A DNA stretch of 64,000 nt. It comes from Gimesia alba. GTDB taxonomy: Bacteria > Planctomycetota > Planctomycetia > Planctomycetales > Planctomycetaceae. Within the stretch, counting starts at the first letter, position 1. Each line of letters opens with the position of its first letter. The notes under the pieces are model-generated. The model did no database searches and had not been told where the DNA came from. It saw nothing but the letters and a program-made list of their open reading frames with translations. Positions 25,134 to 41,137 of this stretch are shown piece after piece. A program made the position numbers and the translations under genes. Location: contig NZ_CP036269.1 in NCBI RefSeq assembly GCF_007744675.1, positions 7,137,917 through 7,201,916 on the forward strand, in the 5' to 3' direction.

Positions 25134-28100
25134 TCAAGCGGGATTTTTTTCCAGCTGTAGATTCAAACCAAGTCCACGAATTTCGTTGTTTAGCACGTCA
25201 AAGCTGGCTGGCGTACCGGCCTCTAATGTATTTTCACCGTTCACCATCGATTCATAAATCTTAGTACGGCCTTCGACATCATCACTCTTCACTGTCAGCA
25301 GTTCCTGCAGAATATAAGCAGCACCATACGCTTCCAGAGCCCACACTTCCATTTCCCCAAATCGCTGACCACCAAACCGGGCTTTACCACCCAATGGTTG
25401 TTGAGTAATCAGAGAGTAAGGACCTGTCGAACGGGCATGTACTTTGTCATCCACAAGGTGATGCAGCTTCAACATGTAAATCTGCCCCACTGTGGTTTTC
25501 TGCTCGTAGGGTTCACCAGTACGACCATCAAACAACTGTGCTTTTCCATCCTTAGGCAGACCAGCTGAATCCAGATACTCGTGAATCAATGATTCCATTG
25601 CACCGTCAAATACCGGACAAACAGCACGAAAACCATGCTTTTCGGCTGCCCAGCCAAGGTGGGTCTCCAGAATCTGCCCCACATTCATACGACTCGGAAC
25701 CCCCAGTGGATTCAACATGATGTCGATCGGAGTTCCATCTTCCGTAAAAGGCATATCCTCAATCGGCAGAACTTTGGAAATCACACCTTTATTCCCGTGA
25801 CGACCAGCCATCTTGTCACCCACGGAAATCTGACGTTTCGATGCGACATAGACTTTAACCATCTGCAGCACACCGTTCGGCAATTCTTCGCCACGTTTCA
25901 TACTGTTAACACGCTGGTCGCAGGTATCAATTACGTCTTCCACATTGGACCAGAGATCATCGATCACAGCCCGGCAGTCTGCCTTTTTCTGCGGGCTTCG
26001 AATATCCAGATCATCTAAATGCGATAGAAAATCATGAGCATACTGAGAAACAAATTTATCCTCAAGAATGTCACGAATCTTACGGCCATCATCATCAACC
26101 AGAGGTTGACCTAATGCACTTTCAAATGTCTTCAGGAACTCACGGAACTCTGCAGCGATTTCCTGGTCACCTTTTTCTTCGACCTGTTTGAGTTCTTCAT
26201 CATACTGCTTACGCTCGTAATCAGTCAGACTCATGCGGCGTGCAAATTTTTCGGTGTGAATTACGATCCCTTCCACACCACTGGAGGCCTCTAACGATTC
26301 GTTTTTGACATCCTCGCCGGCACGCCCAAAGATCGCGTGCAACAGTTTTTCTTCCGGTGTCAACTCAGCTTTGGCTTTCGGCGAAACTTTTCCGACCAGA
26401 ATATCGCCCTGGCGAACACGAGTTCCCACTTTGATAATTCCGTCTTCACCAATATGTCGCAACGCCTTTTCGCTGACATTGGGAATATCACGTGTGAACT
26501 CTTCACGACCCAGCTTCGTTTCACGAATCTCAACATCAAATTCATCAATATGAATCGAAGTGTAAACGTCTTCTTTTACCAGACGCTCAGAAAGAATGAT
26601 GGCGTCTTCAAAGTTGTAACCGTCCCATGACATGAAGCCTACCAGCACATTACGGCCCAGCGCCAGTAATCCGTCTGATGCAGCAGCACTGTTACACAGG
26701 ATCTGACCTTTCTTGACCGAATCACCGACCTTGACGGCAGGCGTCTGATTCAAGCAGGTACGCTCGTTAAGACCTTCGTATTTTCGCAGACGATATTTTT
26801 TACCGTTGACTTCAACCACATTTCCGTCAACGTAAGTCACCTTACCGGCTTTTTCAGCTCTGACCACCATACCTGAGTTCTGAGCCACAGCGACTTCCAT
26901 TCCGGTACCCACCAGAGGCGGTTCTGCGATCAACAGAGGCACGGCCTGCCGTTGCATGTTAGAACCCATCAAAGCCCGGTTCGCATCATCGTGTTCCAAG
27001 AAGGGAATCAGACCAGCGGAAATCCCCACCATCTGTGCGGGGTCGACATCGATGTAATCGACATCGCCGGCAGCAATCCAGACCACGTCATCGCGGAAGC
27101 GCGCCATCACGCGGTCTTCACTGAATTTACCGTTCTCAACGGGTGTGTCGGCGGGTGCCACATGGACTTCGGCCTCTTCATCGGCCCGCATCCAGTGCAC
27201 TTCGTCGGTCAGCTTTCCATTCTTTACAAAACGATAGGGCGTCACCAGGAACCCATAATCGTCTACCTTCGAGAAAATACTCAAACTGGAAATCAAACCA
27301 ATGTTGGTACCTTCAGGTGTTTCAATCGGGCAAATTCGTCCGTAGTGAGAAATATGCACATCGCGTACCTCAAAGCCGGCACGTTTCCGGTTCAAACCAC
27401 CGGGCCCCAACGCACTCAGACGACGTTCGTGTGTTAACATCGAAAGTGGATTCGTCTGGTCAACCACCTGCGACAATTCGCTACGACCAAAGAAGAAGTC
27501 AATCGCCGCCGAGACACTCTTGGGGTTAATCAGCGTACGGGGAGACATCTCTTCGACATCTTTTTGTGTCATACGCTCCTGTACGGTTCGACGCAGCTTG
27601 AGGAATCCTTTACGAATTTCATCGGAAGCCAATTCATCAATCGTACGCAAACGACGGTTACCGAGGTTATCGATATCGTCTACATAAGCGGAGCCATCAC
27701 CAATCCGCAAACGGACCAGATAACGAATGGAGTTAATAAAGTCTTCCGGACGCAACGTCATCTCTGTATCGGGCACATCCTGTTTGAACTTGCGATTGAT
27801 ACGGAAACGCCCCACGCGCCCCAATCGATAACGATTGACGTCAAAGAATTTTTCCTTGAACAGATCAATGGCCCGTTCCAGTTGCGGTGGATTTCCCGGA
27901 CGTAAACGTGAATAGATTCGCAGCAATGCTTCTTCGTGAGTCGCTGTCGGATCTTCGGCAATACTTTGCAGAACCAGCAAGTCGTTGACTTCCGCAACCA
28001 CTTCAATTTTCTTCAGACCGGTGTCAATGATTTCGTCAACCAGCTCTTCAGTAATTGTTCCACAACAATCCAGAATCACCTCGCCACAACGATCGTGGCC

Positions 28101-28850
28101 GGCGGGATACACGATATCTTCAGCGACTATTTTTCCAACCAGTTTTTCAGCAGAAGCACCCGAGGCCACTTTTTCTGATTTGGTCTCGTAAAACAGCTTT
28201 ACCAGATCCGTGTCTGAGGAGTAATCTTTCGACATCGCACGCAACAGCGTCATGGCCGAGAATTTACCACTCTGGTCAATCCGCACGCCCAGTGTGTCTT
28301 TCTTACCGACGACCAGTTCGATCCAACTTCCCCGTTCGGGAATCACGCGGCAGGAATACTCTTTCTTCTCACCAGGCTCAGAACTGAGCACAAAGTCAAC
28401 GCCGGGAGAACGGTGCAACTGACTGACGATACAACGCTCGGCTCCGTTGATGATGAATTCGCCGCCACCAATCATGACAGGCAAGTCGCCAAGATAGACT
28501 TCCTCTTCAATTGGTTGCTCTTTCACGAGACGCAACCAAACGCGGAAGGGGCGACCGTATGTCAATCGTAACTGACGGCACTCTGTCGGCGTGTAGCGAG
28601 GTTTTCCTAACTCATACTTTACGTACTCTAGCTGATATTGCCCCTGATAACTTTCAATGGGAAATACTTCGCGCAAAATCTCTTCAAGCCCCTGATTCTT
28701 TCGCTCACGAGGAGATTTATCAGCTTGAAGAAAAGTGGCATAAGAGTCTGTCTGAATCTGTGTTAAATCAGACAGCTCAAAACTGTGTTCAATCTTACCA
28801 AAATTTTTGACGGATTGAGTGGGGATCGTTCGCTGTGCTGGAATCGGCAT
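25134..28850 (-). CDS. rpoB: RNA polymerase subunit beta
   Basis: Beta forms half of the RNA polymerase active-site cleft and is the rifampicin target. The 1238-residue protein has the rifampicin region with [20 protein letters not shown] and [20 protein letters not shown]. It also has [17 protein letters not shown], and C-terminal [17 protein letters not shown] and [20 protein letters not shown]. It is shorter than E. coli beta (1342), as expected without the large lineage inserts. A long leader and its own promoter lie upstream. Confidence 0.97.
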
Positions 28851-29244
28851 TAAGATGATCTTTTCTACTTACCTGGTGCCAGATGTGGAAATGCCCTGCG
28901 TAACTGACAATGTCGAACTGACAGAGCACAAGCCAAGAATAGCGAGGAACAACAGCGCGTACCTCGAGAGATTACAGCCCCGAATGCTGTATTAAGAGCG
29001 GATCGCTCGACTAAATTAAAGCCTGATAAATCGCTCAATACTACTTTGCTATTCAAAAGAGAGTGCAATGAGTCGATTGCTTAGACCAAATGGGACTGAA
29101 ACGATGACTGATCGAAGCAGATAAACTTACAAAAAACATAAAGCAGTAGTACAACATGCAATAGTGAAATCACGTCTGCAGAAACAGTCACAAACAATGA
29201 TCGCTGCGTCCGATACAAAATCACCAGACAGCAGCCGGTCACTT

Positions 29245-29273
29245 ATTCTAAACGGTGATACAGAACACTTCAA
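29245..29273 (-). promoter_or_regulatory. Sigma70-like promoter of rpoBC
   Basis: TTGAAG (29268-29273) and TAGAAT (29245-29250) on the minus strand are 17 bases apart. Initiation near 29237 gives a leader of about 387 bases before rpoB. Confidence 0.55.
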
Positions 29274-29322
29274 TTGCACGCGAAAAAAAACCAAAAATAT
29301 CCACCCGTACAGGCAGAAGCTA

Positions 29323-29353
29323 ACCTGTGCCAAAACGATGCCTCAGCACAGGT
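29323..29353 (-). terminator. Attenuator-like hairpin after rplL
   Basis: ACCTGTGC and GCACAGGT form a perfect 8-base stem with a 15-base loop, 28 bases past the rplL stop. The T-run is about 33 bases beyond the stem instead of directly after it, so partial termination or RNA processing is as likely as a full terminator. Confidence 0.4.
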
Positions 29354-29381
29354 GAACTTAAGATGGCTTTTTTACGACGAC

Positions 29382-29798
29382 TTACTTTACTTCAGCAGAA
29401 CCACCTGCTTCTTCAACTTCTTTAGCCAGTGCTTCAGCATCTTCTTTCGAGATACCTTCTTTCAGTGGTTTAGGAGCACCTTCAACCAGATCTTTTGCTT
29501 CCTTCAGACCGAGTCCTGTTGCGCCACGAACGACTTTAATCACAGGAATCTTGCTGTCGCCGAATCCAGTCAGGATGACGTCAAATTCGGTCTTTTCTGC
29601 AGCAGCTTCACCGCCGGCATCGCCGCCACCGCCACCGCCAGCCACCATGACAGCACCACCGGCAGCAGCCTTGATACCGTGGACTTCGTCAAGGTATTCA
29701 GCCAATTCTTTAGCCTGGAGCAATGTCAATCCAGCAATTTTGTCGCCCAGTTCTTTGGTCTCTTCACCAAATTCAGTTGTTGCTTCGGCTGTCGCCAT
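29382..29798 (-). CDS. rplL: Ribosomal protein bL12 (L7/L12)
   Basis: The flexible stalk protein that recruits translation GTPases. The 138-residue form starting [20 protein letters not shown] has AAAGGA-like binding site upstream. It has an N-terminal dimerisation domain, an Ala/Gly hinge ([14 protein letters not shown]) and the C-terminal domain [20 protein letters not shown] with [20 protein letters not shown]. The hinge is glycine-rich rather than the more common alanine-rich form. Confidence 0.96.
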
Positions 29799-29933
29799 CT
29801 TCTCTTTCCTTTCGCACGAATGCGTAAAATAGAATCTCTCAATAGTGTAAATCAAATCAACGCTGCATTGCCTCAGCAGCAGTTGCTACAAATTTCAAGA
29901 CACAAACCACAAGCCTTGAAACGGGTCAACGAC

Positions 29934-30452
29934 TTATGACTCATCCCCTTCAGAGATTGTCTTAATCTGCCCGGCAAGGGTCCCGCCGGGACCTTTGATT
30001 GCCCCTGCTAATTGTGCACCAGGTCCGAGGATCCGGGAAACAATTTCGCCAATCAATTCCATTCGACCAGGGCTCTTACTTAGTTTTGTCACATCATCTG
30101 ACGTGAGTGCGGTTCCTTCTGTGGACCCGCCTTTGATCGCCAGATTTTCGATATCTGAAGCCCATTTCGACATCTCTTTTGAGAGAGCGACAATATCTTC
30201 GCCCCCCCACACGAGAGTCGAAGGCCCCTTTAAGACATCTTCCAACCCTTCAACGCCAGCGTTGGCAAAGGCACGACGGGCCAGAGAATTCTTCACCGTC
30301 AGAGTCGAAATCCCTTTCTCCTGCAACTTAAGACGAAAACCGTTATCGGTAATCGCATCCAACTTTGCAGAATCCACAACAACGAAATCTCGAACTTCGC
30401 CAATCTGGGATTCGATCTCCGAGATGATCAGCTCTTTTACAAATTTACTCAT
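29934..30452 (-). CDS. rplJ: Ribosomal protein uL10
   Basis: L10 anchors the L12 dimers to the ribosomal stalk. The 172-residue sequence has VVDSAKLDAITDNGFRLKLQ, TVKNSLARRAFA and GPSTLVWGGEDIVALSKEM. It lies between rplA and rplL with an 84-base leader, where L10 autoregulation acts in other bacteria. No specific structure was identified. Confidence 0.94.
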   Translation of the reverse strand: MSKFVKELIISEIESQIGEVRDFVVVDSAKLDAITDNGFRLKLQEKGISTLTVKNSLARRAFANAGVEGLEDVLKGPSTLVWGGEDIVALSKEMSKWASDIENLAIKGGSTEGTALTSDDVTKLSKSPGRMELIGEIVSRILGPGAQLAGAIKGPGGTLAGQIKTISEGDES

Positions 30453-30536
30453 TAGATCTCTTCCAGCTCATTAAACGCCGAAAACAGTTATTCGTTAATA
30501 TTTTTGGCTACAAATACAATCTGAGTGTTTACGATT

Positions 30537-31241
30537 TTAAAGTGCAATTCCGATTCCAGGGCTCATCGTTGACGAAATAGCAATATTCCGCACATAAGCG
30601 CCTTTCACAGAAGAAGGCCGCAATGATTCCAGATACTTTAACATCGCCTGAATATTCTCCACTAACTGGCTGGCTTCGAACGATAGCTTACCAACGCGAC
30701 AATGCACATTACCGCCAGCGTCCACACGAAACTCAACCTTACCAGCCTTATAATCTTTCACGGCATTCTCGACATCTTGAGTCACAGTCCCAGCGCGGGG
30801 CGAAGGCATCAAACCTCGTGGCCCCAGAACACGACCCAGCGGACCAACAACACCCATCATATCCGGTGTTGCAATCGCCACATCAAAATCAAGCCAGCCC
30901 CCCTTGATCTTCTCTGCCAGATCTTTGCCACCAGCTGCATCAGCACCGGCTGCCTCGGCTGCTTCCAGATTCGCACCCTGGGCAAACACAACAACACGCT
31001 GTGTTTTACCAATACCATGCGGCAGAATGATCGAGCCACGCACCAGTTGGTCTGCCTGACGAGGATCGACACCCAATCGCACAGCCAACTCAACCGTCTG
31101 GTCCATTTTCACTGGCTTGATTGCTGCAGGCAGATCGCTCTCCAGAGACTTTAAAGCCTCCACAGCCTCTTCCAGACCAGCAGAACTAAGCCCGGCCAGC
31201 TTTTCATTATAAAATTTAGTTCGCTTGGATTGTTTTCCCAT
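30537..31241 (-). CDS. rplA: Ribosomal protein uL1
   Basis: L1 forms the mobile stalk at the E site and often represses its own operon. The 234-residue protein has [20 protein letters not shown], the block [20 protein letters not shown] and [13 protein letters not shown]. Its length is normal. It stands between rplK and rplJ. Confidence 0.96.
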
Positions 31242-31324
31242 GACTCTCTATCCGAAAAACGTTTTATGTTTATTTAATATCGCCTGAACCCGGCACCAAT
31301 AATCTTTGCCCTTAAGACAAATGA

Positions 31325-31750
31325 TTATTTCTCGACTTCGAGCCCCATGCTACGGGCAGTCCCAGCAATAATCTTGGCTGCCTGATCAATATTGGGAGCA
31401 TTCAGATCCTCAAACTTGGTCTTGGCAATTTCTTTCAACTGGTCGACGGTCACTTTACCCACTTTGTTCTTCTTAGGATTTCCAGACCCTTTGGCGATCT
31501 GAGCAGCCTGCTTTAGGAGTACCGCAGCAGGGGGACTCTTCAGAACAAAGTCAAAAGAGCGATCGTTGAAAATGCTGATCACAACCGGAACAGTCGTGCC
31601 GGCCATATCTTTGGTTCGGTCATTAAACTGCTGGACAAACTGACCAATATTAACACCGTGTGGACCGAGTGCCGTACCCACAGGAGGAGCAGGAGTTGCC
31701 TGACCACCGAGAATTTGAACTTTTACTTCTGCAACAAGCTGCTTAGCCAT
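31325..31750 (-). CDS. rplK: Ribosomal protein uL11
   Basis: L11 forms the GTPase-associated centre with 23S rRNA and senses stalled ribosomes for RelA. The 141-residue form starting [20 protein letters not shown] has [20 protein letters not shown] and the C-terminal block [10 protein letters not shown]. It follows nusG by 69 bases. Confidence 0.96.
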
Positions 31751-31819
31751 TTGACCGACTTTCAAAACACTTTATAAACACGTGAATCAAACTATTTTAC
31801 ACGGAGCCCGAAAGCCCGA

Positions 31820-32404
31820 TTAGACCTTTTCAATCTGCCAGTACTCTAACTCTGTAGGAGTAGGACGGCTGAAAATTTCAATCAGAACAGTCACCTTGCC
31901 ACTGGCCTCATCAATATTGTCGATCGTACCCTCAAACCCTTCAAAGGTACCATCTTTAATTTTGACAACATCACCGGTCTGAAAATCTAATTTAATCTTA
32001 ACAGGAGTCTCTTCCTTGGTCTCTTCACGGCCCAGCATGCGAGCAATTTCGTGCTCCTGCATGGGAATCGGCTTACCTGCCGCGCCAGTGAAGTCCCCCA
32101 CTCCATTTGTGGATCGAACCAGGTACCAGCTGTCATCATTCAGCTCCACCTGAATCATGAGATAGCCAGGATAAAGCTTTCGCTCAAAAACCCGCTTTTT
32201 ACCACCCTTTGTTTCAACAACCTTCTCGGTCGGAATAATTATTTCTCCGAAATATTCTTCCAGACCGTCTCGCTTAATCCCTCTTAGCAAAGCCTCCCGA
32301 ATTGATTTCTCGCGGTTGCTTTGCACTTTTAACACATACCATAGGCGTTTTTCAGAGCCCTCTGGATTTTCAGAGGCAAGATCAGAACCCGAATCATTAC
32401 TCAT
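31820..32404 (-). CDS. nusG: Transcription antitermination factor NusG
   Basis: NusG binds the RNA polymerase clamp, and couples transcription to the ribosome or Rho. The 194-residue protein has the NGN domain ([40 protein letters not shown]) and a C-terminal KOW domain ([20 protein letters not shown]). An acidic/Ser-rich N-terminal extension of about 18 residues precedes the NGN domain. It lies between secE and rplK as usual. Confidence 0.95.
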
Positions 32405-32578
32405 GAGACACCTTCAACAGGATCCGTTACATACGAACACCTGACAATTACCCTGAAGCTACAATAATAGCGACTGCCAAAAGCAGGAATCGCCCATAAT
32501 GAGCAGGAATCACAATTTATTCAAGAAGCAGAGATCAAAAAATCTCTGTTATCTACCGAAAGCCGAATCGCTACTTCC

Positions 32579-33016
32579 TCAAATCTGCAGAAAACCGATC
32601 CATTTCCACTTGAAGAGGAACTGCCAGAACATGTCATATGCCAAGAGCAGAAACGACAGAAAAAACATCAAGACAATCACAACTGCCGTCGAACGCCACA
32701 ACTGATCCCAGGTCGCCCAGGTCACCTTACTAATCTCAGCTTCCACCGAAATCAGAAAGTCAGCAAACCGGGGGAAATTAACCACCCGATAGGCCAGCCA
32801 AGCCGAAACAACCACAATTGCTACCGCAATCCCTTTTTGCACCCCGGCGGACATCCCCAGCGGCAAAACATTATACAGAGAATAGGCACCAAAAATGGCC
32901 ACCGCAACCAGCCCAATTGCTGTCAGCTGACGCACCAGACGCCCCTGATTCCGTTTATACAAACCACCACTCACCAAAGTGGCAGAAAACGCTTGTCCTG
33001 TCTTGGATTTAGCCAT
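32579..33016 (-). CDS. secE: Preprotein translocase subunit SecE
   Basis: SecE clamps SecY in the inner-membrane translocon. The 145-residue protein shows three hydrophobic segments (about residues 32-52, 60-80 and 111-131). The conserved amphipathic block before the last one contains EISKVTWATWDQLWRSTAVV. That three-segment form resembles E. coli SecE and is much longer than the single-segment form of most bacteria. The N-terminus is basic. The gene is followed by nusG and preceded by tRNA-Trp. Confidence 0.9.
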   Translation of the reverse strand: MAKSKTGQAFSATLVSGGLYKRNQGRLVRQLTAIGLVAVAIFGAYSLYNVLPLGMSAGVQKGIAVAIVVVSAWLAYRVVNFPRFADFLISVEAEISKVTWATWDQLWRSTAVVIVLMFFLSFLLLAYDMFWQFLFKWKWIGFLQI

Positions 33017-33146: not shown

Positions 33147-33219
33147 CACGGGCGGAGGGACTTGAACCCCCAACCGCTGGATTTGGAATCCAGTGCTCTG
33201 CCAATTGAGCTACACCCGT
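33147..33219 (-). tRNA. trnW: tRNA-Trp (CCA)
   Basis: A complete 73-base cloverleaf. The acceptor ACGGGTG pairs with CGCCCGT with one G-T wobble, the discriminator is G, the anticodon loop reads TTCCAAA, and the T-loop is GTTCAAGTC. The 3' CCA is not encoded. A tRNA-Trp just before secE is common in bacteria. Confidence 0.96.
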
Positions 33220-33305
33220 TCAAACTCATGAACCGACCAAACATTTTGACCACCGGAAGCAACTCAAAGACCTGACACCAGTCACAAAATCCAGGCCAGC
33301 AGAAC

Positions 33306-33461
33306 CTACTTCTTGCGAGACTCTTTATGCAATGTATGCTTCCGCAACTTGGGACAGTACTTCATCAGCGAAAGCCGTTCCGTGCCACGAGTCTCCTTAC
33401 TGACCCGATAATTTCGCATTCCGGTCTCAGTACATTCTAACCAAACATATTCACGTGCCAT
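33306..33461 (-). CDS. rpmG: Ribosomal protein bL33
   Basis: A 51-residue protein starting MAREYVWLECTETGMRNYRV and ending KYCPKLRKHTLHKESRKK. Compared with zinc-binding L33, the first cysteine pair is reduced to one Cys and the second (KYCPKL) also keeps one, so the protein is the zinc-free type. It lies between tuf and tRNA-Trp, the usual position next to secE. Confidence 0.93.
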   Translation of the reverse strand: MAREYVWLECTETGMRNYRVSKETRGTERLSLMKYCPKLRKHTLHKESRKK

Positions 33462-33514
33462 AACAGCCCTCGGTCCCAACGGACAACAGTACAACAAACC
33501 TACTATAACTTTAA

Positions 33515-33548
33515 GGTGTCCACTCCGTCATCAGACAGAGTGGACACC
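33515..33548 (-). terminator. Long hairpin between tuf and rpmG
   Basis: GGTGTCCACTC and GAGTGGACACC form a perfect 11-base stem with a 12-base loop, 31 bases past the tuf stop. On the minus strand only TTAAAGTT follows, so the T-run is poor. It may be a partial terminator or a 3'-end-protecting or processing structure that sets tuf mRNA apart from rpmG-secE. Confidence 0.5.
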
Positions 33549-33579
33549 GTGTAAATCACAAAAAGCAGCAACTCTTTAA

Positions 33580-34776
33580 CTACTCAACGATCTTGGTAAC
33601 AACACCAGAACCAACAGTACGACCACCTTCACGAATCGCGAAGCGGCTACCTTCTGACATAGCGATTGGCTTACCAAGCTCGACTTCAACTTCCACATTA
33701 TCACCAGGCATACACATCTCTGCACCACCCAGCAATGTTGTAGAACCAGTCACGTCAGTTGTACGGAAGTAGAACTGAGGACGGTAACCGTTGAAGAACG
33801 GAGTATGACGACCACCTTCTTCTTTACTCAGGACGTAAACCTGACCTTCGAATTTGGTGTGCGGAGGAATTGAACCAGGAGCAGCCAATACCTGACCACG
33901 CTCCACGTCTTCCTTCTTAGTACCACGCAACAGAATACCCACGTTGTCGCCAGCCAGACCCTCATTCAAAGTCTTCTGGAACATTTCGACGCCGGTACAA
34001 GTCGTTTCCTGCGTATCACGCAGACCAACGATTTCCACTTTGTCACCAACAGTAATCTTACCCTGCTCGATACGACCAGTTACAACAGTACCACGGCCAG
34101 CAATGGAGAACACGTCTTCAATCGCCATTAAGAACGCCTTGTCTGCTTCACGTTCTGGAGCAGGAATGTCAGCATCCAGAGCATCCATCAAATTGCCGAT
34201 ACAGGCGTTGTATTCTGGATCAGCTGGATGATCGAGTGCACCTTTCGCATTTCCACGAACGATCGTAATGTCATCGCCGGGGAAACCGTACTTGGTCAGC
34301 AACTCACGGATTTCCATTTCAACCAGTTCGAGCAACTCTTCATCGTCGACCAGGTCACACTTATTTAGAAAGACGACCAGAGAAGGCACATCTACCTGAC
34401 GAGCCAACAGAATGTGCTCACGCGTCTGAGGCATTGGGCCGTCAGCAGCAGAGACCACCAGAATGGCACCATCCATCTGGGCAGCACCGGTGATCATGTT
34501 CTTGATATAGTCAGCGTGACCAGGACAGTCGATATGAGCGTAGTGACGAGTGTCGCTTTCGTACTCCACGTGACTCACAGCAATTGTCACAGTCTTAGTA
34601 TCGTCACGAACGGTTCCCCCCTTCGCAACATCAGCATAACTCTTCATCTGGGCAAGGCCCTTTTCGCTCTGCACTGCCAGCAAAGCGGTTGTCAGGGTTG
34701 TCTTACCATGGTCGATGTGTCCAATCGTACCTACGTTTACGTGCGGCTTTGTTCGCTCAAAGACTTCCTTAGCCAT
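33580..34776 (-). CDS. tuf: Elongation factor Tu
   Basis: EF-Tu delivers aminoacyl-tRNA to the ribosome. The 398-residue protein has the P-loop GHIDHGKT (residues 19-26), DCPGHAD with the catalytic His near 87, NKCD, and domains II and III. Switch I is unusual: the canonical RGITI is KTVTI (61-65), preceded by [10 protein letters not shown]. The Thr that binds magnesium is kept. The gene follows four tRNA genes, an order also found in E. coli before tufB. No second tuf was seen in the str operon here. Confidence 0.96.
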
Positions 34777-34922
34777 CTCTCTTTAAAACCCCTTTTTCAG
34801 GCCTGGCATACAACCAAACCCAAACAATAAAACCAACAAAACAAATAGCGAGGTAAAAACAGGAGTAACCCCTCGCACGCAAGAGGCACACACCTCCTGA
34901 AAACCACATTTTAATTCACTCA

Positions 34923-34999
<77 letters not shown>

Positions 35000-35037
35000 A
35001 TTTTCTGTCTTAAAAACCAAACGCGTTTATATCAAAA

Positions 35038-35108
35038 AGCGGGTGAAGGGAATCGAACCCTCACAACCAGCTTGGAAGGCTGGGGCTCTACCATTGAGCT
35101 ACACCCGC
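35038..35108 (-). tRNA. trnG: tRNA-Gly (TCC)
   Basis: A 71-base cloverleaf with acceptor GCGGGTG/CACCCGC, discriminator T and anticodon loop CTTCCAA. The 3' CCA is not encoded. Confidence 0.96.
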
Positions 35109-35142
35109 AAAACCGTGACTCAGTCAATTTCCAACTCATAAG

Positions 35143-35224
<82 letters not shown>

Positions 35225-35309
35225 TCCCAACCAGCCGAAGCTGGATATCATAAGCCGTTCACTGAACCCACTTTAAGTAAAAAGAAAGGCCCAGAATTTC
35301 AGGTTAAAG

Positions 35310-35382
35310 AGCTAGCGGTGGGAATCGAACCCACAACCTTCGGTTTACAAAACCGATGCTCTGCCGATTGAGCTACGCTAGC
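35310..35382 (-). tRNA. trnT: tRNA-Thr (TGT)
   Basis: A 73-base cloverleaf with acceptor GCTAGCG/CGCTAGC, discriminator T and anticodon loop TTTGTAA. It is the first gene after the promoter at 35486-35513. Confidence 0.96.
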
Positions 35383-35751: not shown

Positions 35752-35788
35752 AAAAAAACAGGCATGGCTCTGTGAACCATGCCTGTTT
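35752..35788 (-). terminator. Intrinsic terminator of the sigma-factor gene
   Basis: AAACAGGCATGG (35757-35768) and CCATGCCTGTTT (35777-35788) form a perfect 12-base stem with an 8-base loop. On the minus strand a T-run follows. It lies about 50 bases past the stop of the gene at 35841 and insulates the tRNA-tuf promoter. Confidence 0.88.
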
Positions 35789-35840: not shown

Positions 35841-37511
35841 TTAAATTCCCGGAATTTCAACTCGTTCTACCTGTGTAATTCTCCGTAATTTTTTCAGAGC
35901 ACGAGACTCCAACTGCCTGATCCGCTCCTTGGTCACACCAAAACGATCACCAACCTGTTCAAGTGTCTGGGGTTCATTTCGGGCATTCAGTCCATAGCGA
36001 TAAATCAGAATATCTTTCTCGCGGCCATCCAACTGATCCAGAATACTCATGATCACAGCATGCTGTTTCTGGTTGATCAGTTCCTCACGGTACTGGCTTT
36101 CCCGCTCATCAGTCGATTGAAAGAATAATTCTTCATTACCCGTTCGGAACCGATCGAGCACCTTGTACTCGGCGGGAATCGAACGTGCGTAATTCTTCAT
36201 AATCGCCCAGCTGGCATACGTAGAAAACTTGTTCCCTTTTGTGTAATCAAATTTCTCGATTGCACGAATCAGCGACATATTGCCGTCACTAACCATTTCA
36301 AAGAAGTTGTTTCCTGGCCTGATATGACGCTTGGCAATTGAAACCACCAGTCGCAGGTTACTCCGGATCAAAAAGTTTTTCACATCGGTACTCTCATCAA
36401 GCAACTTTTCGATCTGATCCATGTCTCGCGCTTTGGGTCGATTAGGATCCAGATTTTCCTGAATCTGAAATGCCCTGTATTTCAGGTAATTCAGTTTTCG
36501 GAAATAGTAGGCTTCCTCTTCTCGCGTCAGCAATGGAATTGAATACAAGCTTGCCAGATACGGGGGCAATCCGGGCGGAGTGCGAACTTTTTCATTCGAT
36601 TTATCGACTTCCGGAGGTGGCCCCAGAATCACTTTGTCTGCATTTGGTTGTTCAAATTCATCACTATGCATGTAGTCGATCGTCTGGGCATGCAGACGTG
36701 CAGCCCGGGCTTCGGAAATGATGCGATAAATACTGGCCTTAGTGCGACAGTAACGACGCGCCAGCTTTTCGACGGGAATTCCACGTCGAAACGTGTTGTA
36801 AATATCACGCTTCTGTTGCTCTGTAATTTTTTCTGGAGCATTCGGAAATATAGCCAACTCCGGGTTCTCCCGATCAAAATTTTTCAAAGTGTAGCGAATG
36901 GTTTCCGGCGAACGATTCATGTGCCGCGCAATCCGCCGGCTGATCTCAGCAGGACACCCTCCATACCGAGCCAGACGCCGCGCCCGACGCAGAATCTCTT
37001 CACGATCTTCATCACTCAGCTGACTGAAATTCATGCTGCGTGTGATATGACCGCGATTCTTCTGTAGAAAACGATCCACTGACGACTTCAGGAAACCAAC
37101 CCGTTTCCGGCCGTTAAACCGAAAACGACGACTGACCAAACCTTTATCTCTCCAACGATCAACGGTCTTCGTGGAAATATTGAACTTTTTACTGAGATCC
37201 TGGACCGTCAGAACCTCCTCATCGACATCGTCTACGTTAATCTCTGCGCTGTCAGACAGGTCCTCAATAAAGCAACGTAAATCATGCAGAACATCCGCGC
37301 CGGAAATCACCAGATCCGGGTAAATTTCCGATCGGTATGTTGTGATTTCCTTACAGAGGTCCGGATAGGGATAATCCTGCTCCTGCTCGATATTAGAGAG
37401 AAATTGCTCCGCGCGGCTGATTTGCTCAAGCTTCACCTCGCGCGGTGCGTACTTCACCTGCTGCTCCGCTAACTGTTTCATCGCCGGATTGTTATATTTT
37501 GAACTGATCAT
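35841..37511 (-). CDS. Sigma70-family factor with N-terminal helix-turn-helix segments
   Basis: A 556-residue sigma factor. The C-terminal half has a region 1.2-like segment (about 316-345), region 2 (about 380-445: SNLRLVVSIAKRHI, FDYTKGNKFSTYASWAIMKN) and region 4 (about 490-545: GREKDILIYRYGL, GVTKERIRQLESRALKKLRR). Only about 45 residues separate regions 2 and 4, so region 3 is reduced or missing. The N-terminal half has a MerR/excisionase-like helix-turn-helix (about 100-150: LSKKFNISTKTVDRWRDKGL). It also has two further putative helix-turn-helix segments at about 185-210 and 233-270. The start at 37511 has GGGTGGGAATTC directly before it. It may be a principal-type or group 2 sigma; which promoters it serves is unknown. 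Confidence 0.88.
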   Translation of the reverse strand: MISSKYNNPAMKQLAEQQVKYAPREVKLEQISRAEQFLSNIEQEQDYPYPDLCKEITTYRSEIYPDLVISGADVLHDLRCFIEDLSDSAEINVDDVDEEVLTVQDLSKKFNISTKTVDRWRDKGLVSRRFRFNGRKRVGFLKSSVDRFLQKNRGHITRSMNFSQLSDEDREEILRRARRLARYGGCPAEISRRIARHMNRSPETIRYTLKNFDRENPELAIFPNAPEKITEQQKRDIYNTFRRGIPVEKLARRYCRTKASIYRIISEARAARLHAQTIDYMHSDEFEQPNADKVILGPPPEVDKSNEKVRTPPGLPPYLASLYSIPLLTREEEAYYFRKLNYLKYRAFQIQENLDPNRPKARDMDQIEKLLDESTDVKNFLIRSNLRLVVSIAKRHIRPGNNFFEMVSDGNMSLIRAIEKFDYTKGNKFSTYASWAIMKNYARSIPAEYKVLDRFRTGNEELFFQSTDERESQYREELINQKQHAVIMSILDQLDGREKDILIYRYGLNARNEPQTLEQVGDRFGVTKERIRQLESRALKKLRRITQVERVEIPGI

Positions 37512-38204
37512 GAATTCCCACCCTCTTTTTTTGACTCTTCCCAGTAACCACAGTGTCCATCACATGCGTCGTCTCCAGGTTCTGTCATTAGTACGTATTA
37601 TTAGACGAATATGAGAAGAAAAAGTTCACACGTAAATAATTTTAGTCAAACATCTCATATTTCCAGCAAAACGTTGAAAATGGCGCGGCATAACCACTGA
37701 TATCAATGAACATAAACCAATAATATAATTAAACTTACAACTCTACTTATTAATATAAGAACTCGAAGCTCTCTCCCGATTAAACCCGCAAAACTAACTA
37801 TGATTCGGCCCCAGACCTCTATTCTTAGAAATAAAATTGTGTGAAATAGCTCACATTTCCCAATCCCAGCACCTGCCCGCAACCAGTATACAAATATAAA
37901 CACACCCTGTCAAACCGTACGTACACTATTCAGAATTGGCATCCAAACTGATCCCAATTACGTGAACATTCATGTCTAAATGAATATAAATTCCAGCCTG
38001 TCCTGATTCGAATCCACCGAAGTCTATTTACCTTTGTCCCAGTAGAGATACCATTTAAGGAAAGAAAGCTAAGACTCTCTGTTTGGACTTGAAGTCACCG
38101 TCTCAACAGCTCATTTCTTAAATACAATACGACAAATACAATTGCTTCATTTGACGCATTTCAATTCGGACCTCCGAATCTCTCTTTCAGCAGCAGGTAG
38201 CATT
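37512..38204. other. AT-rich divergent intergenic region, about 0.7 kb
   Basis: No gene is supported. The region separates the minus-strand sigma gene from the plus-strand DUF1549 gene and must hold both promoters. It is visibly richer in A and T than the flanks. A weak TTTACG / CATATT pair 17 bases apart about 100 bases before the sigma gene is the only candidate I noticed. Confidence 0.45.
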
Positions 38205-39827
38205 ATGTTGAAGCGTGGTCAAAGTTCTTTATTCAGGCCCTATCAATGGATCGTTTTCATCACATTGATTTGTCTGTTTCTTCCGACAACTTTAGCGGCT
38301 GCGCCCAGAAAAAATGCGAAGAAGAAAGCCCCTCCGCTCAATCTCCCTCCTCTCAAAACACAAGAACAGAAGATGCAGCTACTGGGATATATCCGGTCAA
38401 CGATGCCGACACGTCGAATTGCCCGTAGCGTCAGCTTCAGCTCCGCCGACCTGGATCAGGCTCTGGAACAGGAACTAGGTCCAACGTCGCAGGCAGCCCT
38501 CGCAAAAACAATTGATGACGAAACTTTTATTCGACGCGTCTATCTCGATCTGACAGGGACACTACCCACACCACAAAAAATCGATTCATTTCTTGCCAGT
38601 CAACAGAGAGGCAAACGAGCCGCGTTGATTGACGAATTGCTGGAAACCAAAGAGTACGCGCGCAAATGGGCTCGGTACTGGTCCTCGGTCATTTTTTACG
38701 ATAGTGTCGCCAACAAAAACCGAGTCAGTCCACAGGCACTGGAGGACTGGCTGGCAGAGCAATTCAGCAAAGGAGCTCCTTGGGATTACATTACCGTAAT
38801 GCTGATTTCGGCGACTCCCCAGCGCAACAAAGCGGTCCGAAACGACTTTGGCCAGAAATACGGGCCGAACAATTTTGTGCTGGCATGCGAAAATAAATCG
38901 ACTGAACTCGCGTCTCAGACGGCTCGTATCTTTATGGGTATCAGCATCAAATGCGCCGAATGCCACGACCATCCGTTTGATAACTGGAAACGCGAGCAAT
39001 TTCATGAACTCGCCGCCTTTTTCCATCCCTACACCTACAAAATGCCTGACGCAGATGACCCAACAGTCAAAACGGTAGTCAAACCCCGCTTTCTGCTGGG
39101 AGAAAAACCACACGAGAAAATGAAATCCGACGCCCGGCGAGTTTCCATAGCCGCCTACCTGGCATACAACCCGCAAAATTACTGGTTTGCTCGCGCCTAT
39201 GTGAACCGCATCTGGAGCGAACTGATTGGCGACGGATTCTATGATGTCGACAGCCTGGGGCCTGACAGCGATGTGATTCACAAGCCGGTCGTCAACCGGA
39301 TCGCCGCCAATTTCCGCTATAAAAACTTTGATCCCAAGTGGGTCTTTCGATTGATTATGAACTCAAAAATCTATCAGCGAGAAATGCGGACCATGTCTTC
39401 GACATCAGAACTGTTTACCGCAGTCCGACCTTCCCGATTGCGCCCGGATGTTGTCGCATCTGCGGTTGAAAAATTAGCAGGATATGACAAAAAACTACAC
39501 CAGGAAATTATGCAGGTCTTCGATATGAACCCCTCTCTGCCTCAAGGGGCGTTAGAAGGATCAATCCAACAGGCGCTGCTGCTGATGAACAGCGCCACCC
39601 TGCAGTCCAGACTCTCTCAAAGTGAACTCAAACAACAACTCGTTAAGATCAACTCAAACGAAGATTTGGTACAGAAACTGTATCTGAACGTGCTGGCCAG
39701 ACATGCAACTGAGCAGGAAATACAACGGAATAGCGAATATTTGAACGAGTCAGAAAACCGCGAAGAGGCCATCGAAGACCTAGTCTGGGTCCTTATCAAT
39801 TCCACAGAGTTTCGAACAAAACGCTAG
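38205..39827 (+). CDS. Secreted DUF1549/DUF1553 protein
   Basis: A 540-residue exported protein. A signal peptide (WIVFITLICLFLPTTLAAA) precedes a Lys-rich linker. The first half has the DUF1549 signature (FIRRVYLDLTGTLPTPQKID) and a C-x2-C-H motif (KCAECHDHPFDNW) that resembles a haem or metal site. The second half has DUF1553 features (YVNRIWSELIGDGF and RPSRLRPDVVASAVEKL). Such proteins are abundant in planctomycetes and are nearly always followed by a DUF1501 gene, as here. The function is unknown. The ATG at 38205 is preferred over an upstream one because it begins the signal peptide. The C-terminus ends in NSTEFRTKR, also typical. Confidence 0.85.
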   Translation: MLKRGQSSLFRPYQWIVFITLICLFLPTTLAAAPRKNAKKKAPPLNLPPLKTQEQKMQLLGYIRSTMPTRRIARSVSFSSADLDQALEQELGPTSQAALAKTIDDETFIRRVYLDLTGTLPTPQKIDSFLASQQRGKRAALIDELLETKEYARKWARYWSSVIFYDSVANKNRVSPQALEDWLAEQFSKGAPWDYITVMLISATPQRNKAVRNDFGQKYGPNNFVLACENKSTELASQTARIFMGISIKCAECHDHPFDNWKREQFHELAAFFHPYTYKMPDADDPTVKTVVKPRFLLGEKPHEKMKSDARRVSIAAYLAYNPQNYWFARAYVNRIWSELIGDGFYDVDSLGPDSDVIHKPVVNRIAANFRYKNFDPKWVFRLIMNSKIYQREMRTMSSTSELFTAVRPSRLRPDVVASAVEKLAGYDKKLHQEIMQVFDMNPSLPQGALEGSIQQALLLMNSATLQSRLSQSELKQQLVKINSNEDLVQKLYLNVLARHATEQEIQRNSEYLNESENREEAIEDLVWVLINSTEFRTKR

Positions 39828-39853
39828 TTATTTTGAATCAGAGGAATCATCAC

Positions 39854-41137
39854 ATGCAGGCAGATGCGCTCTTACATCTGAATTTGAACCGTCGCGGCGG
39901 GATCTCCCGAAGAAAATTTTTACAGTCTGCTTCGCTGGGAATCTCCGGCTCTGCACTGTTAAGCCAGTTCCGCTTAAACGCAGCCGAACTGAAAAAGGAA
40001 GGCCGCTCCTGTATCCTGGTCTGGCTGGCTGGTGCACCGAGCCAGATGGAAACCTGGGACCCCAAACCGGGGACGCCCAATGGGGGCGAAACAAAAAAAA
40101 TTGCAACCCAGACACCGGGAATTGAAATTGCTCATTATTGGCCCAAGATCGCTTCTGTCATGAACGACATTGCCGTCATTCGTTCCATGACCGGCAAAGA
40201 AGCCGCCCACGAACGCGGCACCTACCACCTGCATACCGGTCACCGCATGCTGGGGATTGAAAAGTTCCCCCATTTCGGTTCGGTCGTCGCCAAAGAGATC
40301 GGTGACCCCCAATCGGATATCCCCAACTTTGTCAGCATCGGCCAGACACTGAGCTCGGGCTTTCTGGGAGTTCAGGTAGCACCGTTTATTATCGATCGCC
40401 CCGGTCAGCTACCGGATAATGTTTTTAATGACACACCCACCTCACGGCAGCAACGCAGACTCGCGTTATTAAGCCAACAGGAAAGTGACTTTGCTGACGC
40501 CGGTGCTGCAGCTCTCGTCAAAGAGCAAAGCAAGCTGTATCAGAAAGCGAACCTGATGATGCTGTCACCCCGCCTGAAAGCATTTCAATTCGATGACGAA
40601 CCGACGGCCATGAAAGAGGCCTACGGGAAATCGCAACTCGGACAGGGACTGCTGGTAGCACGCAGGCTCGTGGAAGTAGGCGTCCCCTTTGTTGAAGTGC
40701 GCAGCGGAGGCTGGGACATGCACAACAACGTCTTTAAAGGAATGGAACGACGTGCTCCTGAAGTCGATCAAGGCTTATCTCAGTTGTTGATCGATCTGAA
40801 ACAGCGTGGCTTGCTGGATAAAACGCTGGTGCTCTGTATGGGTGAATTCGGACGCACTCCTAAAATCAATGCTCGTCCCCCTGTTCCCGGACGTGACCAT
40901 TGGGTCAAAAACTTCAACCTTCTGATGGCAGGAGCAGGCATCAAAGGGGGACAAGTCATCGGCAAAACGGATGAAAACGGTCAGGAAATCGTCGATTCCC
41001 CGGTCGAAGTGGATGATCTCTTCCGATCCATGTGCCATGCCATGAAAATCAACGCTGACATGGAATTACACACCCCCATCGGACGTCCCGTTAAGCTGGT
41101 CGAAAGCGGCACCGTAATTAACGGCCTCTTCCGCTGA
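39854..41137 (+). CDS. Tat-exported DUF1501 protein
   Basis: A 427-residue protein with a Tat-like leader (RRGGISRRKFLQSASLGISG). A sulfatase-like alkaline-phosphatase fold family core follows: ILVWLAGAPSQMETWDPKPG near the N-terminus and LCMGEFGRTPKIN and GRDHW further on. This is the DUF1501 family, partner of the DUF1549 gene 26 bases upstream. AGAGGA stands about eight bases before the ATG. The role is unknown, but paired occurrence and export suggest a shared periplasmic or surface task. Confidence 0.87.
   Translation: MQADALLHLNLNRRGGISRRKFLQSASLGISGSALLSQFRLNAAELKKEGRSCILVWLAGAPSQMETWDPKPGTPNGGETKKIATQTPGIEIAHYWPKIASVMNDIAVIRSMTGKEAAHERGTYHLHTGHRMLGIEKFPHFGSVVAKEIGDPQSDIPNFVSIGQTLSSGFLGVQVAPFIIDRPGQLPDNVFNDTPTSRQQRRLALLSQQESDFADAGAAALVKEQSKLYQKANLMMLSPRLKAFQFDDEPTAMKEAYGKSQLGQGLLVARRLVEVGVPFVEVRSGGWDMHNNVFKGMERRAPEVDQGLSQLLIDLKQRGLLDKTLVLCMGEFGRTPKINARPPVPGRDHWVKNFNLLMAGAGIKGGQVIGKTDENGQEIVDSPVEVDDLFRSMCHAMKINADMELHTPIGRPVKLVESGTVINGLFR

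Follow-up and report, generated by a model that had tools for sequence, protein, structure and literature searches.

A sigma-70 family protein of Planctomycetota with regions 2 and 4, no recognisable region 3, and three predicted N-terminal helix-turn-helix segments

In the window (the whole stretch of 64,000 nucleotides analysed here), it was found that a gene on the minus strand encodes a sigma-70 family protein that keeps regions 2 and 4, lacks a recognisable region 3, and begins with a module made of a domain of no named family and three predicted helix-turn-helix (HTH) segments. The factor is core to the class of the window. The family is confined to Planctomycetota in all the genomes searched (393 of this phylum, 20 of other phyla, and 91 more from one of the latter). 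On balance, I lean towards the reading that this is a planctomycete-specific alternative sigma factor with a built-in DNA-binding module, which would compensate for the lost region 3 and narrow promoter choice. In the four-group scheme, the sigma factors without region 3 are the ECFs with regions 2 and 4 only. A class-wide, single-copy factor that keeps region 1.2, drops region 3, carries a predicted DNA-binding module, and precedes the tuf-secE unit in many genomes departs from this scheme. The gene and its parts are as follows.

35841–37511, minus strand: sigma gene, 556 amino acid residues (ORF, translation, and full-length orthologues)
37242–37487, minus strand: N-terminal domain of no named family, residues about 9–90 (models)
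37056–37217, minus strand: HTH1, winged, MerR/excisionase-like, residues 99–152 (HTH_17 over the cut-off; structural neighbours)
36864–37019, minus strand: HTH2, residues 165–216 (model helices 167–182, 187–198, and 202–215; HTH_38 below the cut-off)
36684–36824, minus strand: HTH3, residues 230–276 (Mor just over the cut-off; structural neighbours)
36576–36683, minus strand: linker, residues 277–312 (first part retained in several short paralogues)
36456–36575, minus strand: region 1.2-like segment, residues 313–352 (superposition; no match to Pfam r1_2)
36171–36431, minus strand: sigma region 2, residues 361–447 (Pfam r2 and model)
36102–36170, minus strand: disordered linker replacing region 3, residues 448–470 (pLDDT below 50, no r3 match)
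35877–36101, minus strand: sigma region 4, residues 471–545 (Pfam r4 rather than r4_2)

The Pfam profiles Sigma70_r2 (residues 380–436, E-value 8.5e-13) and Sigma70_r4 (residues 490–542, 1.6e-18, 66.3 bits, against just 21.4 bits for r4_2) both matched the protein over their cut-offs, which makes it a member of the sigma-70 family. Regions 2 and 4 were matched at E ≤ 0.01 in all 24 family members, namely the window protein and 23 others that are 30–94% identical to it. The first-pass annotation had described the two regions as separated by a short gap without an obvious region 3, and both observations held. The gap is about 43 residues. Sigma70_r3 was absent from the window protein at E ≤ 10 among the 25 of 26 families listed, while it matched the three canonical sigma factors of the same genome (L001, L002, and L003) at E ≤ 2.8e-16. 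In the 24 family members, it was not among the 25 of 42 families listed, so that at most two members could match it. In the AlphaFold model, residues 446–471 have a pLDDT below 50 and form no domain, and region 4 begins within a helix at residue 469. Thus, structure prediction, which had been proposed as a check, placed no complete region 3 between regions 2 and 4. The full-length model was built from 24 sequences and has a mean pLDDT of 84.0 and a pTM of 0.51; since this pTM is low, the mutual placement of the domains is not readable from it.

Neither Sigma70_r1_1 (among the 25 of 26 families listed) nor Pfam r1_2 matched the window protein. In model superpositions, residues 313–447 fitted chain 6k4y_F of a sigma appropriation complex, which I take to be E. 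coli sigma70 (134 residues, 2.6 Å, Z 14.0), as well as M. smegmatis SigA (8qn8_F; 127 residues, 3.0 Å, Z 14.0). Therefore, a region 1.2-like segment is present despite the lack of a Pfam match. The same genome has two RpoD-type sigma factors, L001 and L002, both with regions 1.1, 1.2, 2, 3, and 4 by Pfam. Regions 1.1 and 3 are both absent from the window protein, in agreement with the earlier statement that its layout is not that of group 1 or 2. Across the genome, region 2 matches total 48.

The sigma half is well conserved in the intact lineage. The FSTY residues of region 2 are kept in 23 to 24 of the 24 intact family members, the window protein included, and E529, R530, R532, and Q533 of region 4 are each found in 23 of the 24. 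A436 is kept in 23 members, and K/R439 and A442 in all 24; the canonical sigma factors of the genome, aligned by eye, have W, Q, and T there. These positions presumably act at -11/-12 in E. coli sigma70, the changed positions of region 2.4 being, I assume, those that read -12. Since region 4 nearly keeps the residues of canonical sigma factors, a TTGACA-like -35 element is expected, while the -10 preference should differ because of the changes in region 2.4. Region 2 has the highest mean identity to the window protein in this lineage (0.65); the N-terminal domains reach 0.43–0.57, region 1.2 reaches 0.55, and region 4 reaches 0.51.

The N-terminal half was modelled both within the full-length protein with AlphaFold and separately as residues 1–304. 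The two models agree on the order of a domain (residues 9–89), a winged HTH (100–151), and two further HTHs (167–215 and 231–275). The first-pass annotation had proposed three HTH segments, with failure to fold as HTH as the check; all three fold as HTH in both models, with block means of pLDDT mostly at 84–93. For the domain at residues 9–90, the block means are 91–93 in the full model and 92–95 in the N-terminal model, and Pfam gave nothing near a curated cut-off. This domain, the region 1.2-like segment, and paralogues without the module (see below) are additional to what had been noted before. HTH1 had been likened to MerR and excisionase proteins, and this likeness is seen in both profile and fold. 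It is a winged HTH that scores 27.6 bits against HTH_17 (cut-off 27), while Pfam MerR stays under its cut-off (22.9 versus 28.2). HTH_17 also matches 22 of the 24 family members at E ≤ 0.01, the window protein included; therefore, the match is not due to chance. HTH2 reaches 22.9 bits against HTH_38, under the cut-off of 27, and HTH3 (residues 221–274) reaches 25.7 bits against Mor (cut-off 24.9). The structural neighbours of HTH1 are viral DNA-packaging proteins, Xis, and BldC (Z 6.0–7.1), and those of HTH3 are sigma region 4 and response-regulator HTHs (Z about 6), with Z values that fall in a range common for small helical folds. As judged from the profiles, HTH1 and HTH3 are better supported than HTH2. 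In the linker that follows, N-terminal profile positions within 260–302 are also matched in several short paralogues such as L010 and L011.

In a Foldseek search with the whole model, each of the 50 PDB rows listed was an entry for a sigma factor or a transcription complex, and almost every named viral row was a sigma factor. Because sigma entries filled these rows, residues 1–304 were modelled and searched alone; nothing was found at E ≤ 0.001. It was also considered whether HTH2 and HTH3 represent a displaced pair of regions 3 and 4. Alignments of residues 163–283 on sigma regions 3–4 exist, but with a Z of about 6 and an rmsd near 20 Å, and the idea was not supported. PADLOC reported MzaA over region 2 and mad1 over HTH1, and PHROGs reported sigma, excisionase, and regulator families. 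A mobile or phage origin was not supported by searches of the N-terminal half. In viral contigs, none of the 24 pattern matches was confirmed, with a single close-range query. In plasmids, none of the 160 matching records covers 80% of the query, and the best 10 of the 160 all start at residue 280 or later.

How widely is the module distributed? The N-terminal profile alone matches 209 of 393 Planctomycetota genomes at E ≤ 1e-8 and all of the 99 sampled genomes of the window's class. There is one match per class genome, except for G300, in which the first match (1–217) and the sigma match lie on different contigs. Nearly the whole profile is covered in 94 of the 99 genomes. G454 matches from position 88 onward, which is not a contig end, and three genomes of one genus (G387, G456, and G460) match only through HTH3. 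Among the 25 genomes reached via named loci, the five planctomycetal genomes all match and the 20 non-planctomycetal genomes do not. One of these 20, G501, is the genome of L116 (Parachlamydiaceae); the 92 genomes of its phylum, 91 of them further ones, gave no match, and since there is no positive genome among them, this zero alone shows nothing. A scan of genome contigs for sigma motifs gave at least 80 loci. Seven of these have the full or nearly the full length, one more is incomplete at the end of a contig, and all eight are planctomycetal. The whole-protein profile matches 391 of the 393 Planctomycetota genomes at E ≤ 1e-15, in many cases probably only through the generic sigma regions.

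The module also occurs where the sigma half is degenerate. I chose by hand 20 relatives with a partial or weak whole-protein match: nine from family f65, six from f5, three from f98, and two from f101. The N-terminal module is recognisable in all 20 (E-values from 3.6e-62 to 2.4e-85), whereas only two have a Pfam region 2 match at E ≤ 0.01, and Pfam r4 is listed for 14. Ten relatives were checked singly; eight have an r4 match, and in five the match sits on the N-terminal HTHs. A true C-terminal region 4 over the Pfam cut-off is present in L190, L191, and L195, from f5 and f98, and none of the nine f65 proteins examined has a recognisable region 4. The mean identity of the 20 relatives to the window protein is 0.30–0.33 for the four N-terminal domains, 0.20 for region 2, and 0.14 for region 4. 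These comparisons suggest decay of region 2 throughout the chosen relatives, while region 4 has disappeared from the nine f65 proteins and persists in some of the other relatives. Three residues of predicted HTH helices, T116, R119, and R206, are the same in the window protein and all 20 relatives. Because the module persists where the sigma part has decayed, it looks like a separable DNA-binding device.

The opposite loss was found in genus g196. In three genomes (L176, L177, and L209), the N-terminal domain, HTH1, and HTH2 are gone, while HTH3 and the sigma core are intact. This genus nests inside the long forms on the sigma-core tree (support 100/96), and thus the loss is derived. In a protein of family f51 (1480–2592 of L275), the N-terminal domain (profile 1–82) is fused to a sigma core that has regions 2 and 4, and the HTHs are missing. 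There are also short paralogues, L010 and L011 in the same genome and others elsewhere, which have regions 1.2-like, 2, and 4 and neither region 3 nor the module. The short forms of the class type make up one clade (99/98), except for L258, which groups with the long forms. Ten further short forms from f5, f65, f58, and f49 form a clade of their own, which sits on a long branch and has no supported position in the tree (81/58). Seven of the ten come from f5 or f65 genomes that also hold a gene with the N-terminal module. The other three genomes (G220, G057, and G077) have an intact long form together with a short form; therefore, a simple division of labour is not proven. At two loci of two families, 321–2397 of L011 in the same genome and 126–2224 of L262, a short sigma gene without region 3 is divergent from a gene for a protein with HTH_17/MerR and two B12-binding domains, which I take to be the make-up of CarH/LitR-type light sensors.

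Downstream of the sigma gene, the window has the following features.

35756–35788, minus strand: terminator-like stem-loop 3′ of the sigma gene (palindrome and T run kept in the genus alignment)
33147–35382, minus strand: conserved downstream unit of tRNA-Thr, tRNA-Tyr, tRNA-Gly, tRNA-Thr, tuf, and tRNA-Trp (tuf confirmed by Pfam)
25134–33016, minus strand: secE, nusG, rplK, rplA, rplJ, rplL, and rpoB, in this order (Pfam)

From the full-length matches, 64 loci were chosen by hand rather than at random. In 28 of them, the window included, tRNA-Thr(tgt), tRNA-Tyr, tRNA-Gly, tRNA-Thr(ggt), and tuf come after the sigma gene on its own strand. These 28 belong to seven families and are all among the 57 loci of the class, versus none of the seven loci outside it. 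The first tRNA starts 164 to 2277 bases past the sigma gene, and some loci may have another gene in between. The secE gene lies within the locus in 27 of the 28, the exception (L247) being at a contig end. Among the first 23 loci examined, secE, nusG, and the ribosomal protein genes are in the same order in six. Since the terminator-like stem-loop ends the sigma gene, it is probably not co-transcribed with the tRNAs. The adjacency to the tRNA-tuf unit had been taken to point to a housekeeping or growth-linked role. The adjacency itself is real in about half of the class loci, while housekeeping is too strong a word for a factor whose genome has two RpoD-type sigma factors. In the part consulted of a transposon-sequencing study of Planctopirus limnophila (PMC10632474), the one sigma factor called essential is 'the housekeeping sigma factor'.

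Upstream regions were aligned for ten genomes of the window's genus, the window included, and three elements were found.

37885–37913, minus strand: sigma70-type promoter-like site TTGACA-N17-TATACT (pattern in 8 of 10 genus genomes)
37840–37855, minus strand: CRP-type palindrome TGTGA-N6-TCACA (10 of 10 genus genomes, 0 of 54 other loci)
37603–37627, minus strand: ECF-type promoter-like element GAACTTTTT...CGTCT (10 of 10 genus genomes)

The palindrome, which is perfect in the window, lies about 30 bases downstream of the sigma70-like -10 element, a position that suits roadblock control. The CRP-type pattern was found in 20 of 97 ORF upstream regions of the genus, twice the number of sigma genes. 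The likely reason is that the intergenic stretch is shared with the divergent gene. The site may thus act on the divergent neighbour instead of the sigma gene. Divergent from the sigma gene, at 38142–41137, lie a PSCyt2/PSD1 (DUF1549/DUF1553) gene and then a DUF1501 gene. In a scan for promoter-like sites, the upstream region had no excess of sigma70 sites (4 versus 5.1 in shuffles). The GAACTTTTT...CGTCT element is 116–118 bases before the start codon in the genus alignment. The pattern GAACTTTT-N12/13-CGTC is present in all ten genus loci and in 12 of 27 other loci of the family (shuffle means 0.00), and in none of the 27 loci beyond the family (20 class loci of other families and seven outside the class). 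Among other ORF upstream regions, it occurred in 10 of 97 (genus) and 12 of 323 (family), the same counts as for the sigma gene; these are probably the sigma gene itself, which was not removed from the set. A genome-wide regulon could not be derived from this element. The exact 34-base pattern with up to three mismatches occurs once, upstream of the sigma gene, and the core pattern is no commoner in the genome than expected by chance (4 matches, control 6).

How would such a factor work? Regions 1.2, 2, and 4, as their domains and fold suggest, would bind core RNA polymerase and a two-part promoter; a short flexible linker stands where region 3 would be, which is also the case for ECF sigma factors. 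The unnamed domain and the three HTHs would give the holoenzyme extra sequence-specific DNA contacts, and these may make up for the lost region 3 and narrow promoter choice. In the window's genus, the conserved motifs suggest expression from a sigma70-type promoter beside a CRP-type site and from an ECF-type promoter; the two promoter types would place the gene in a sigma cascade. The first-pass annotation had the HTHs reading an element upstream of the promoter. The module precedes region 1.2, which argues against a simple upstream position, and in planctomycete ECFs with N-terminal extensions the extension is at the front of the moving holoenzyme, according to the part of the review consulted (PMC8103513). 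For these two reasons, a downstream or looped contact seems at least as likely as an upstream one. The linker of 36 residues could let the module reach either side.

A working sigma factor is the most likely reading because of the intact regions 1.2, 2, and 4, the class-wide conservation, and the conserved contacts of region 4. Likewise, DNA binding is the most likely role of the module because of the conserved residues in the three HTHs and the persistence of the module where the sigma half decays. Against this reading are the weak matches of HTH2 and HTH3 to known families and the g196 proteins, which have an intact sigma core but lack the N-terminal domain, HTH1, and HTH2. The retention of the module in decayed relatives could also mean that its main job is not promoter choice by its own sigma. 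It is less probable that the module is mainly a cis-acting regulatory extension, for example an autoinhibitory or partner-binding one, whose removal or displacement switches the sigma on. HTH folds also serve in protein contacts, and the conserved domain at residues 9–90 is fused in L275 to a sigma core that has no HTHs. N-terminal extensions of ECFs are treated as regulatory, with the mechanism not known, in the part of the review consulted (PMC8103513). Against it stand the three HTHs with conserved residues in their predicted recognition helices, and the survival of the whole module after decay of the sigma half, when little would be left in cis to inhibit.

A somewhat smaller chance is given to a DNA-binding activator at heart, whose sigma-like half is a tether to RNA polymerase and does not open promoters. 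The chosen relatives fit such an activator in that all 20 keep the module and two keep Pfam region 2, with region 4 gone from the f65 proteins. In the window's lineage, however, region 2 is the most conserved part of the protein, and L190, L191, and L195 still have region 4 despite the decay. The least likely of the alternatives is that the protein is an ordinary one for its phylum, a member of the N-terminally extended planctomycete groups ECF87, 88, or 89. Such groups are published (PMC8103513, in the part consulted), but membership is made less likely by the region 1.2-like segment and by region 4, for which Pfam r4 is a much closer fit than r4_2.

If the preferred reading of a module that reads DNA is right, the protein would be a sigma factor with a built-in activator, and it would offer a direct test of how far promoter specificity can be shifted beyond regions 2 to 4. 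Families in which the sigma half has decayed and the module is kept would show a sigma factor turning into an ordinary regulator. As a speculation that I hold only tentatively, this may be a fifth sigma-70 layout, a sigma with a three-HTH DNA reader, core to a bacterial class; in some sister families, the fusion would have come apart in function, and a reader with a decayed sigma half could work jointly, as a bipartite sigma, with a separate short sigma that lacks region 3 and is encoded in the same genome.

How does this layout compare with known sigma factors? In the part of PMC10575876 consulted, group 1 spans regions 1.1 to 4, region 1.1 is missing from group 2 and regions 1.1 and 1.2 from group 3, group 4 consists of regions 2 and 4 only, and SigI has neither region 3 nor a true region 4. 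By domain content, the window protein fits none of these four textbook groups, nor SigI. The layout was not described in the literature searched, which covers few subscription journals and leaves the primary paper on ECF87-89 outside. In the parts consulted, a proteome study of Tuwongella reports two SigA paralogues and ECFs with WD40 repeats (PMC8567305), a survey of cyanobacterial sigma factors reports other extra domains (PMC11119718), and a review of non-canonical ECFs reports N-terminal extensions with transmembrane helices in ECF36 (PMC8999054); none of these is the layout of the window protein.

The window protein resembles the RpoD-type factors of groups 1 and 2 in regions 1.2-like, 2, and 4, and its region 4.2, compared by eye, is near that of the genome's own RpoD-type sigma factors. 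Unlike L001 and L002, it has no region 1.1, and no region 3 either by Pfam among the families listed or as a domain in the model. Group 3 differs in having region 3 and in lacking the region 1.2 that is seen here as a fold (PMC10575876, in the part consulted). The window protein resembles group 4 (ECF) in the absence of region 3 and in the linker that joins regions 2 and 4; the linkers of ECFs take the place of region 3 and enter the active-site cleft (PMC6411747, in the part consulted). Unlike group 4, it is not limited to regions 2 and 4; it has the region 1.2-like segment, the multi-HTH module, and a region 4 that fits r4 (66 bits) over r4_2 (21 bits). SigI of Bacilli and Clostridia shares part of region 1.2, region 2, and the absence of region 3, but it has an unrelated C-terminal domain where the window protein has a true region 4 (1.6e-18), and the part of PMC10575876 consulted makes no mention of an N-terminal HTH module for SigI. 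The ECF87-89 groups, compared by their description alone in the part of PMC8103513 consulted, are similar in coming from Planctomycetes and in having an N-terminal extension on a sigma factor without region 3. Finally, HTH1 is alike in fold and sequence to the winged HTHs of MerR, excisionase, and BldC proteins, and it differs from them in being one of three HTHs inside a sigma factor.
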